From the NCBI GenBank assembly GCA_938023075.1, contig CALHDG010000131.1, positions 1-64,000 of the forward strand: a stretch of DNA of 64,000 nt. The letters run 5' to 3'. This stretch comes from an uncultured Chitinophagales bacterium (GTDB lineage Bacteria; Bacteroidota; Bacteroidia; Chitinophagales; JAHDHT01). This document shows, piece after piece, positions 5,880 through 15,822 of the stretch; the first letter of the stretch is position 1, and the number at the start of each line of letters is the position of its first letter. Made by a program: the position numbers and the translations under genes. Under the pieces are notes generated by a model. The model was not told the DNA's origin, did not search any database, and saw only the letters and a list, made by a program, of their open reading frames with translations.

Positions 5880-5974
5880 AGCTTTCTTTTCAACAAAAAT
5901 AATAATTGCTGGTTGAATATGACTATAGAATGCTACAAATTAAATGTTGATAAGATTTAGTTGGTTTTTTCTAT

Positions 5975-6270
5975 TTATATAAATGTAATAAACGAATTGA
6001 ATGCAGCACATCTATCACTTTTCAATAGTGCTTCATAATCTTGTTTTGTAATATGACTTTCAAAGCTACTGACATCGCCTTTGCTTTTATTATAAGATTT
6101 ACCTACAGTTTTCAGTAAATCACTTAATGTTTTGGAAGGATGAAAAAGGTTAATCTCAGGATCGTCATTAATATTATAAGCAGTCTGCTCCACAATGAAG
6201 TTTTGATTCAATCGCGCATCAATTTTTGAAATACAGTAGTTAGCCCCCACAACCAAGCTTCAATTTCCAT
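5975..6270 (-). pseudogene. DUF4276-like gene remnant with frameshift
   Basis: Reading from the ATG at 6270 gives MEIEAWLWG, then the frame fails at a run of five G's (about 6243-6247). The next frame continues ANYCISKIDARLNQNFIVEQ and on to DPEINLFHPSKTLSDLL, YNKSKGD and AFNSFITFI. The EIEAW start, the DPE-x-HPSK-x-L block and the YxKxKGD segment are what I recognise from the C-terminal half of DUF4276 proteins. The N-terminal half of about 110 residues is missing. The remnant sits directly behind the terminator of the large secreted-protein gene. Family assignment is moderate. Confidence 0.45.
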
Positions 6271-11501: not shown

Positions 11502-11554
11502 ACCACAAATTCATGTTTAATGAGCTTGCTTGTTAAAGCCAAAAGAAAATATAA

Positions 11555-11592
11555 CTGGAGTTATCTACCTATAAAAACCTAGATAACTCCAG
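11555..11592. promoter_or_regulatory. Perfect palindrome 1 upstream of the DUF234-type ATPase
   Basis: CTGGAGTTATCTA (11555-11567) and TAGATAACTCCAG (11580-11592) are perfect 13-bp inverted arms around a 12-bp centre. The same arms recur 87 bp downstream. It is a candidate operator for tilS, the ATPase gene or both. Confidence 0.7.
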
Positions 11593-11642
11593 CTATAATA
11601 ATTTCATAAATATAATAAAATATAAAAAATTAATAGCATATC

Positions 11643-11678
11643 TGGAGTTATCTACCTATATTTGTATAGATAACTCCA
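11643..11678. promoter_or_regulatory. Perfect palindrome 2 overlapping the leader of the ATPase gene
   Basis: TGGAGTTATCTA (11643-11654) and TAGATAACTCCA (11667-11678) are perfect 12-bp arms with a 12-bp centre that differs from copy 1 while the arms are identical. It ends 14 bp before the ATG at 11693. It could be an operator or, if transcribed, a hairpin that blocks the start region. Confidence 0.7.
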
Positions 11679-11692
11679 AGTTTAATTGTATA

Positions 11693-13129
11693 ATGAACAA
11701 TATAGTAATTGGTAGAAATGATGAAATAGCCATCTTTAAAAAGCTATTACAGTCTCGAAAAGCAGAATTTTTGGCAGTTTATGGAAGAAGAAGGGTAGGT
11801 AAAACCTTTTTGATTAAACAGGTCTTTCAAAAAAATATGATCTTTCAGTTTTCTGGAGCTTATGAGGTAGAAATGCCGATTCAGTTAGATAATTTTTATA
11901 GAGCCTTTACCGAACAAACTAAGGGTAAAACGAAATTACCAGCACCCAACAATTGGTTTGAAGCTTTTCATATGCTGGCTGTATATGCCCAAAAAGCCAG
12001 TAAGCGCAAAACCAAAGCGGTTATTTTTTTAGACGAATTACCTTGGTTAGACACTCCAAAATCAAGGTTTGTAAGTGCCTTAGGTTTTTTTTGGAATTCG
12101 CATATTGTAGATTTGAGCAACGTAATTTTAGTAATTTGTGGTTCAGCATCTAGCTGGATCAATAAAAAAATATTTCGGAACAGAGGTGGTTTACACAATC
12201 GGGTAACTGAACGAATAAACCTAAAACCTTTTAGTTTAGCAGAAACCGAAGCCCTATGCAAACATAAAAAATTGCGATTAACCCGTTATCAAATTACTCA
12301 AATTTATATGGCTTTTGGTGGTATTCCATTTTATTTAGATGAATTGACGACAGGCAAAAGTGCCATTCAAATAATTGATGAAGTTTGTTTTAGTAAGCAC
12401 GGTTTGTTAAAAACAGAATATCATGAACTATATCACTCATTGTTTAAAAATGCCGATAATCATATAAAAATAGTAGAAGCTTTAGCATCTAAACCTTATG
12501 GGCTTACTAAAACTGAACTGTCCAAAATTACAAAGCTGCCATTATCCGGTAGTTTACTTAGGCCTTTAGAAGAGTTAGAAGCTTGCCAATTTATATCTTA
12601 TCATCACCCTGTTTTTAATATGAAAAGAAATGGGATTTACCGGCTTATCGATTTATATACTCTATTTTATTTAAAATTTATAAAGCGAGCTAAGCAAAAT
12701 ATTTCTTTTGAAAATATTTCAACAAGCCATGCATATAAAGTTTGGTCGGGCTATGCTTTCGAAAACGTTTGCATGTTACATATTGCCCAAATAAAAAAGG
12801 CTTTGGGTATTTCGGGTATTAGTGCTGCAGCCTTATCGTGGAAATTTTTGGGCAACCAATATTACAAAGGCACACAAATAGATTTAGTAATTGACCGGGC
12901 AGATAACGTTATTAATTTATGTGAGATTAAATTTCACAACAAAGAATTTACAATTAATAAAGCCTATTTTACAAACACCTTACGCCACAAAAGATGGGCT
13001 TTTTTAGATCAAGCTAAAACAAAGAAAGCAATATATACGGTTTTGATCAGTACCTTTGGTGCGGTTAAAAATAAATATTACTTCGGTGAAATACAGCGCG
13101 AGGTTTTGTTGGATGATTTGTTTGAGTAG
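11693..13129 (+). CDS. AAA-type ATP-binding protein with DUF234-like C-terminus
   Basis: The 478-residue protein begins with an archaeal-type ATPase domain: Walker A GRRRVGKTF (residues 31-39), Walker B AVIFLDELPWLD (108-119) and the sensor region ICGSASSWI, followed by GGLHNRVTERINLKPFS. The C-terminal part (about 300-478) looks like DUF234, a nuclease-like domain, with the acidic/lysine segment LCEIKFHNKEF near residue 410. Members of this family are widespread orphan genes in accessory regions; their role is not established. It is a single gene behind two long palindromes, suggesting dedicated regulation. G+C is as low as in its neighbours. Confidence 0.85.
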   Translation: MNNIVIGRNDEIAIFKKLLQSRKAEFLAVYGRRRVGKTFLIKQVFQKNMIFQFSGAYEVEMPIQLDNFYRAFTEQTKGKTKLPAPNNWFEAFHMLAVYAQKASKRKTKAVIFLDELPWLDTPKSRFVSALGFFWNSHIVDLSNVILVICGSASSWINKKIFRNRGGLHNRVTERINLKPFSLAETEALCKHKKLRLTRYQITQIYMAFGGIPFYLDELTTGKSAIQIIDEVCFSKHGLLKTEYHELYHSLFKNADNHIKIVEALASKPYGLTKTELSKITKLPLSGSLLRPLEELEACQFISYHHPVFNMKRNGIYRLIDLYTLFYLKFIKRAKQNISFENISTSHAYKVWSGYAFENVCMLHIAQIKKALGISGISAAALSWKFLGNQYYKGTQIDLVIDRADNVINLCEIKFHNKEFTINKAYFTNTLRHKRWAFLDQAKTKKAIYTVLISTFGAVKNKYYFGEIQREVLLDDLFE

Positions 13130-15071: not shown

Positions 15072-15822
15072 ATGATTAAACCAAAAATATTTGTATCCTA
15101 CTCCAGAAAAGATGTTGAGTATTTAAACGAATTTATCGTTCATCTTTCGGGTTTAGAAAGAAATGACAAAATTGAATTGTGGACTGACCAAGAAATTGTA
15201 GCCAGCACCGTTTGGGAAAAGGAGTTAAAAAATCGCTTAGAATCGGCAGATATAATTATATTTTTAGTTAGTCCTGATTTTATCGCCTCTGATTATATTT
15301 ATGATGTAGAAATAAGCAAAGCCATTGAACGCCACAACAAGGGTGAAGTAGCTATTGTGCCAGTTATTATCCGACCTTGTGATTATTCATCGACACCTTT
15401 AACTAAATTTCAAGCCTTGCCAAAAAATGCTGAACCCATATCGAGTTGGAAACTTAGGGATGAAGCATGGATGGATGTGGTAAATGGTTTGAAAAGAACG
15501 ATAGACGCAATTGGAGCTCCTTCTCATCAATCGAATACCCATGCTGAAAGCACGAATAAGGTAAATGAATCTAATAATAACATAGATGCGATTAAAATGC
15601 AAATTGCTAATGGTAACATTGAACAAGCCATTAATGATTTAATAGCCTTAACTAACTAAAGGAAAAGATCATTACAATACAATAATTATGCAATCCGGCA
15701 AATACAACAGAACTAAAAAAGACAATGCTATGGGTATATTAAGCCTTGGTGATTACAAGCAGTCCATTGCGCAAATTGAAAATGCTTTGTTGTCGGTTTT
15801 GGATGAGTTGGGTTTGGATTGA
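15072..15822 (+). pseudogene. TIR-domain effector with C-terminal EAD11-like domain, split by a 4-bp duplication
   Basis: The first frame (15072-15659, 195 codons) encodes a TIR domain: KIFVSYSRKDVEYL at the N-terminus, LWTDQEI (36-42), FLVSPDFIASDYIYDVE with the candidate catalytic Glu80, then PVIIRPCDY. It ends IANGNIEQAINDLIALTN. Removing one CTAA unit of the CTAACTAA tract near 15650 joins it to a downstream frame ending at 15822, which reads MQSGKYNRTKKDNAMGILSL and on to IENALLSVLDELGLD. The joined 75-residue tail matches the EAD11 effector-associated domain pattern. TIR-EAD proteins are thought to be NAD-consuming immune effectors. As sequenced the gene is split; it may be dead or phase-variable. 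Confidence 0.8.

Follow-up and report, generated by a model that had tools for sequence, protein, structure and literature searches.

Autoregulated operators of toxin–antitoxin systems and defence repressors consist of dyads across a promoter, read by a separate regulator or by the antitoxin. Among the described systems closest to the locus analysed here, PDC-S27 is a single-gene candidate phage-defence system of PADLOC that joins an ATPase and a domain of the PD-(D/E)-X-K superfamily in one protein and is counted 3503 times in Archaea and 4562 times in Bacteria; the parts of its description available to us make no mention of cis sites (PMC12988326). Palindromes linked to a gene are known from RAYT/REP systems. 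According to the accessible portion of the source, RAYTs are IS200/IS605-type transposases always accompanied by two flanking REPs, which alternate in orientation and apparently co-evolve with the protein, and REPs usually exceed 100 copies per genome (PMC2817692). For archaeal Orc1/Cdc6, the available excerpts describe AAA+/winged-helix proteins; a genome encodes several paralogues, and each of these has its own origin recognition boxes next to it (PMC3936714, PMC3528665).

The window, i.e., the whole 64,000-nucleotide stretch of DNA from an uncultured Chitinophagales bacterium that was analysed here, contains a gene that matches PDC-S27 over its full length and is preceded by two palindromes. 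Although gene-linked palindromes are reminiscent of RAYT/REP, the window protein is, by Pfam and structure model, an AAA+/winged helix/nuclease protein and not an IS200/IS605-type tyrosine (HUH) transposase. Furthermore, PDC-S27 sites are mostly upstream only, the window gene is not flanked by two, and its palindromes occupy two places in the genome instead of being dispersed in many copies. The likeness to Orc1/Cdc6 lies in the AAA+/winged-helix architecture (model-based in our case) and in the private adjacent sites of the paralogues, whereas PDC-S27 has a nuclease tail, occurs on bacterial chromosomes and plasmids, and has sites overlapping the putative promoter of the gene itself, with no evidence for an origin. 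The PDC-S27 dyads, lying across the putative promoter of a defence-type gene, resemble toxin–antitoxin and defence-repressor operators, but the sole candidate binder in the PDC-S27 cassette is the effector-like protein, and each gene has a different site. Taken singly, operators and AAA+ nucleases are of known kinds. Searches of the open-licence literature found no description of the private-code arrangement of palindromes in PDC-S27/DUF234 ATPases. On comparative sequence grounds, we consider the palindromes to be private self-operators on a horizontally spreading cassette, with the ATPase as their most likely binder (probability roughly 0.6). The data suggest that each enzyme recognises and controls its own gene only.

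The window gene and its palindromes

Table 1. Positions of the palindromes, the putative promoter box and the protein domains in the window.
Feature	Position	Strand	Description
Distal palindrome	11550..11597	.	18-bp arms TATAACTGGAGTTATCTA / TAGATAACTCCAGCTATA, 94%; 13 bp perfect; 12-bp centre
Proximal palindrome	11643..11678	.	Perfect 12-bp arms TGGAGTTATCTA / TAGATAACTCCA; 12-bp centre
TATATTTG, fit to TAnnTTTG	11657..11664	+	In centre of proximal palindrome
PDC-S27 protein, 478 aa	11693..13129	+	ATPase_2/AAA+, winged helix, PD-(D/E)XK-like nuclease
AAA+ ATPase domain, residues 1–220	11693..12352	+	Pfam, structure model, structure matches
Winged helix, residues 250–330	12440..12682	+	Proposed DNA-reading part; model secondary structure, weak co-variation with arms
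Nuclease-like domain, residues 340–478	12710..13126	+	Invariant D397, E411, K413

The gene product matched Pfam ATPase_2 (6.7e-18) and the PADLOC PDC-S27 profile PDLC04984 (609.5 bits; residues 4–477 against 3–473 of the 474 profile positions), and is a candidate phage-defence protein. No match was found in NCBIfam or PHROGs, and a sequence search of the PDB returned nothing meaningful. The sequence-only reading had described the gene as an orphan of DUF234 type. The Pfam DUF234 model (PF03008) did not match the window protein at E ≤ 0.001, although the homologue of Wolbachia phage WO is annotated as ‘archaeal ATPase, fused to C-terminal DUF234 domain’. The gene is no orphan, as the genome holds eight full-length PDC-S27 genes, the other seven being 42–57% identical to that of the window. 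A ninth fragment, a 99% copy on contig C257, proved to be an assembly overlap with C97, and recent duplication in this genome was accordingly rejected. PDC-S27 matches were present in 23 of 149 neighbourhood genomes (this genome counted), with up to ten per genome; the distribution was sporadic and multi-copy, and the genes were also carried by plasmids and a phage. Separately, a 195-aa TIR protein matching PADLOC ThsB (151 bits) was encoded at 15072–15659, 1.9 kb downstream of the ATPase gene.

The AlphaFold model of the full protein (pLDDT 92.6) comprised the AAA+ part, a winged helix, whose approximate limits are our reading of the model secondary structure, and a C-terminal domain. The rest of the model came closest to two archaeal ATPases, 2qen (Z 20.6; rmsd 3.5 over 304) and 2fna (Z 20.0; rmsd 3.0 over 298), followed by plant and animal STAND proteins and Orc/Cdc6 (1w5t: Z 14.4, rmsd 4.3 over 302; 2qby: Z 13.6, rmsd 8.5 over 293). 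The C-terminal part was barely tested in the full-model search and was therefore folded separately (pLDDT 92.8). Its best matches, weak and none below E 1e-3, were AF1548, McrC, the Cas4-like ACE1 and MspJI, all of the PD-(D/E)XK fold class. These best matches point to a PD-(D/E)XK-like nuclease, and its three motif residues (Table 1) were invariant across 33 homologues.

The sequence-only reading had noted two long perfect palindromes, with 13- and 12-bp arms and 14 bp separating the second from the ATG, and this was borne out. The perfect arms lie at 11555–11567 and 11580–11592 (distal) and at 11643–11654 and 11667–11678 (proximal). Their centres differ, as it had also stated, yet the first six bases, cctata, are common to both. 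The dyads are 87 bp apart; because the background was only about 45 palindromes per Mb (score ≥ 12, loop 8–25; 330 kb of the same genome), two palindromes with identical arms at this distance are not a chance occurrence. The whole-genome motif search that it had proposed found the window palindrome nowhere in the 6.1-Mb assembly but at these two places, and its observation that no matching copy follows position 13129 was upheld by a search of the window for exact copies. The 12-mer core CTGGAGTTATCT had three exact copies in the genome, all at the window gene. With one mismatch allowed, it gave 13+10 matches in total, compared with 8+5 for a backwards-pattern control. A dispersed regulon of the window arm was rejected, since the one-mismatch matches elsewhere barely exceeded the control and none was palindromic. 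TAnnTTTG is the Bacteroidota −7 promoter consensus, and the box in the proximal palindrome, which fits it, is the putative −7 box of the window gene.

Palindromes across the PDC-S27 family

The comparison set consisted of 64 PDC-S27 genes, 62 of which had a start codon, and the two with missing 5′ ends were left out of the 62-gene count. L018 and L019 (same loci as L054 and L056) and L042–L046 (fragments or weak homologues) were excluded throughout, and L024, a near-duplicate of L015, was excluded from the 61-gene counts of palindromes against controls and of TAnnTTTG. An inverted repeat with a score ≥ 10 was found within 260 bp upstream in 55 of the 62 genes; the lack of a strong upstream palindrome in the other seven is a point against the self-operator reading. 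Within 160 bp upstream, a palindrome was present in 52 of 61 genes; the background was 2.8% in 941 control intervals drawn from these loci and 3.4% in 1220 dinucleotide shuffles. At a score ≥ 13, the figures were 33 of 61 genes, 0.7% of control intervals and no shuffles.

Dyads of about 48 bp, one to several per gene, lay just upstream of nearly every bacterial PDC-S27 gene examined. The copies at one gene agreed with each other and the arms varied from gene to gene, on a shared half-site frame, TTAT-nn-Y-n-GC-nn-WAWSTA, whose n positions were gene-specific and common to close protein relatives. An arm conserved across orthologues was thus rejected, as the frame alone was conserved. The alignment of orthologue upstream regions for TGGAGTTATCTA, suggested by the sequence-only reading, would have missed the pattern because each gene has its own arm. 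Searched through the whole locus, the half-site of each gene was nearly confined to its own flanks, in alternating orientation; L010 had about five dyads, and unpaired extra half-sites also occurred among relatives. The G-C steps of half-sites, with distances computed by hand from the alignment table, were 30/31 bp apart (about three helical turns), or 23 bp in the compact form of one clade. Dyad-to-dyad spacing was 51.5–54 bp, close to five helical turns, in 14 of 29 cases. In a profile of 65 palindromes, symmetry was absent from the inner six positions, reached 85–98% at positions 9–16 and about 78% at 17–22, and fell to background beyond 25; the shape and not the height of this profile is informative, because the sites were picked for symmetry.

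Of 61 genes, 33 had TAnnTTTG no more than 75 bp upstream, and in 21 it lay inside a palindrome; the proximal dyad often contains a putative −7 promoter box, as at the window gene. Palindromes also preceded homologues in Bacillota (Butyrivibrio plasmid, L153), a Chlamydiota MAG (L020) and viral contigs. No palindrome was found in the three haloarchaeal relatives scanned, which is a point against the self-operator reading. Distant homologues on haloarchaeal plasmids (L161, L163, L164) shared a box, TAAGTCATTATCG..TAATCATTATC, directly before the start codon across genera, and a ParA gene was nearby in two of them. The homologue in Wolbachia phage WO (L158, MN180249.1; 40% identical) was located among head genes; in place of palindromes, a repeat containing CCGCGG lay upstream of it in two direct copies.

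Genome-wide specificity was examined with R1, a covariance model built from 25 in-register palindromes, which matched both window palindromes on both strands (both are in its training set). Searching the 6.1-Mb genome at E ≤ 1, with 150 of 5496 candidates scored, gave 21 places, 7 of them in the training set and one an assembly duplicate. Nineteen were at PDC-S27 genes and covered all eight loci; the other two lay upstream of a DUF4143 ATPase and within a coding frame. Together with the 55 of 62 genes above, this is the reverse of what the sequence-only reading had named as contrary evidence, namely palindromes absent upstream of orthologues and random elsewhere. Across the 149 genomes, R1 at E ≤ 0.001 matched in 17 of the 23 that were ATPase-positive and in 2 of the 126 that were ATPase-negative. 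Its absence from six ATPase-positive genomes is a further point against the self-operator reading. In G019, the match was located away from the weak ATPase homologue. Among 40 further loci searched at E ≤ 0.05, four of which had contributed training sequences, matches were found in 18, and all places but two were upstream of the ATPase. The exceptions were L022:5960 and L017, where the match lay directly past the stop codon of a gene whose 5′ end is missing. Relative to L021, L022 had some 2 kb of additional DNA on the downstream side of the ATPase (L022:4510–6540), and a solo palindrome on the shared frame lay within it, at 5959–6008.

The arms followed the protein among close relatives. In the 15 pairs with at least 60% protein identity, from which the syntenic pairs L028/L029 and L026/L027 had been removed, arm similarity was 0.746, compared with 0.628 overall (reached in 0 of 20000 permutations), and pairs below 60% were at baseline. 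Over the whole set, the link between protein and arm was weak (Mantel r 0.095, 89/2000; L027 and L015 left out), which speaks against the self-operator reading. L005, L057 and L054, from three genomes, had palindromes that were 85–90% identical, with unalignable DNA between and around them. L015 and L024 were 90% identical from −176 to 22 bases beyond the stop codon and, outside this unit, unrelated save for short scattered matches. Given that arms follow the protein even with unrelated flanks, the palindromes and the gene appear to travel together. Divergence between pairs with different arms peaked in the winged helix and around residues 181–210, a weak signal. A scan for co-variation with the arms placed its top windows between residues 191 and 310, the best of which (71/2000) would fail correction for 44 windows. 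A role of the winged helix as the DNA-reading part is only suggested by these patterns.

Proposed self-operators and rival explanations

Under the self-operator reading, the ATPase, an AAA+/winged-helix protein whose model resembles archaeal and STAND ATPases and the DNA-binding initiator Orc1/Cdc6, would bind its own half-sites via its winged helix, either dimerised or in a larger complex. The bound protein would cover the promoter and keep expression low. A change in nucleotide or ligand state, for example at infection, might then free the promoter and deploy the C-terminal nuclease, and the palindromes and gene would be passed on, by inheritance as well as by transfer, as a single cassette of about 1.6 kb. 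In PDC-S27, a defence candidate that is abundant but uncharacterised, a private cis site at nearly every bacterial member examined offers a handle on the DNA that is read and on the restraint of the protein. The dozens of natural protein/site pairs on one frame could also serve as a test bed for protein–DNA specificity.

The sequence-only reading had proposed an operator pair, for a dedicated regulator or for the ATPase itself, and the comparative data favour the latter over the former. Defence islands commonly have operators to which a separate repressor binds, RptR reportedly being an example, and such a regulator, encoded elsewhere and different for every ATPase gene, might act here too. 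However, the site is private to its gene and follows the protein across unrelated flanks, the window arms occur nowhere else in the genome, and the conserved L015/L024 unit contains no regulator gene; a separate regulator would therefore require one dedicated travelling gene per ATPase, which we regard as very unlikely. The leader hairpin that this reading also raised deserves still less credence; as RNA, such hairpins would control translation or the stability of the mRNA. Both window palindromes do fold well as RNA (z −8.5 and −4.2), but the probable promoter is situated within the proximal palindrome, and RNA starting there folds unremarkably (z −0.36). Moreover, the inner triad WST was kept in 46 of 50 half-sites, and 8 of the 11 palindromes with a broken triad kept it in both halves. 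Wobble pairs made up 7 of 47 non-Watson–Crick cells, which is no excess, although this count carries reduced weight because the palindromes were chosen by Watson–Crick symmetry. The unpaired half-sites, and searches that yielded no Rfam match and no terminator-like site, also argue against hairpins. It is just as improbable that the palindrome is a self-mark or incompatibility tag by which the nuclease attacks or spares DNA. The invariant nuclease residues and the private sites in cis would suit this role, but the arms of paralogues were no more different within a genome (0.627, 80 pairs) than between genomes (0.628, 1246 pairs), and orthogonality or exclusion between paralogues, for which this comparison gave no signal, was rejected.

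A further explanation is that the palindromes are cis sites of a small mobile element. By analogy with RAYT/REP, or with an initiator and its origin, the AAA+/nuclease protein might use them as end or recombination sites and move or copy its own gene, autoregulation being secondary. The discrete L015/L024 unit with unrelated flanks, the sporadic multi-copy distribution, and plasmid and phage carriage are consistent with this. Furthermore, at seven loci a palindrome with matching arms lay shortly after the stop codon (L006, L030, L035, L037, L050, L068 and L017, the last with a downstream site only). The arms may be termini of a minimal element, as the sequence-only reading had alternatively suggested; the window gene, unlike these relatives, has no downstream copy, and most relatives have upstream sites only. 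In ATPase-bearing genomes, R1 also found palindromes beside decayed genes of which mostly the C-terminal end was left (L104, L107, L110, L111, L114, L121), beside other decayed ATPase pieces (L109, L118, L119), and alone (L103, L105, L106, L108, L112, L113, L115). The solo palindrome at L105:3001–3048 (G057), between other genes, has the arms found upstream of L065 in the same genome, and at L110:3001–3282 a palindrome is followed by the first ~17 ATPase residues fused in frame to the last ~58. Solo palindromes and decayed genes look like the remains of lost cassettes. Autorepression would require neither the downstream nor the solo palindromes, which, with the relics, leave room for a role in mobility. 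In contrast, this genome holds no near-identical copies, the paralogues being as divergent as noted above; a target-site duplication was not evident by eye at the L015/L024 edges, an empty site was not found, and the protein has no transposase domain. As the primary function, mobility is unlikely.

Upstream repeats of DUF4143 ATPases

The genome of the window also encodes ten DUF4143 ATPases, another AAA+ family (L123–L132). In 6 of the 10 (L123, L124, L129, L130, L131, L132), 11-mer repetition over 200 bp of upstream sequence exceeded all 20 mononucleotide shuffles, and L127 had three 33-bp repeats upstream. The spacings were mostly 23 or 32–33 bp. The repeats took the form of palindrome pairs (L123, L124), 23-bp direct repeats (L129, L130) or 32/33-bp repeats (L127, L131, L132). 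One of these ATPases had been found through R1. Given the private upstream repeats, the private-site rule may be wider than PDC-S27. A bolder interpretation, which we hold to be rather doubtful, is that the PDC-S27 genes are one-gene selfish cassettes. An initiator-like AAA+/winged-helix/nuclease protein on a private, helically phased array would both silence itself and move or copy its cassette, with the site code rewired fast for each paralogue, and the DUF4143 ATPases with their 23- or 32/33-bp repeats would be a second lineage under the same rule.

Promoter-like TAnnTTTG boxes were seen among the DUF4143 upstream repeats. Other palindromes were encountered in G000: a REP-like one, AGACCTGACAGG..CCTGTCAGGTCT, on three sampled contigs (L078:4058, L084:6459, L087:7614), and an imperfect one of about 50 bp, TCGATATTCGATATT.., in three near-unchanged copies (L077:9472, L077:15172, L082:4195), perhaps the end of an element.
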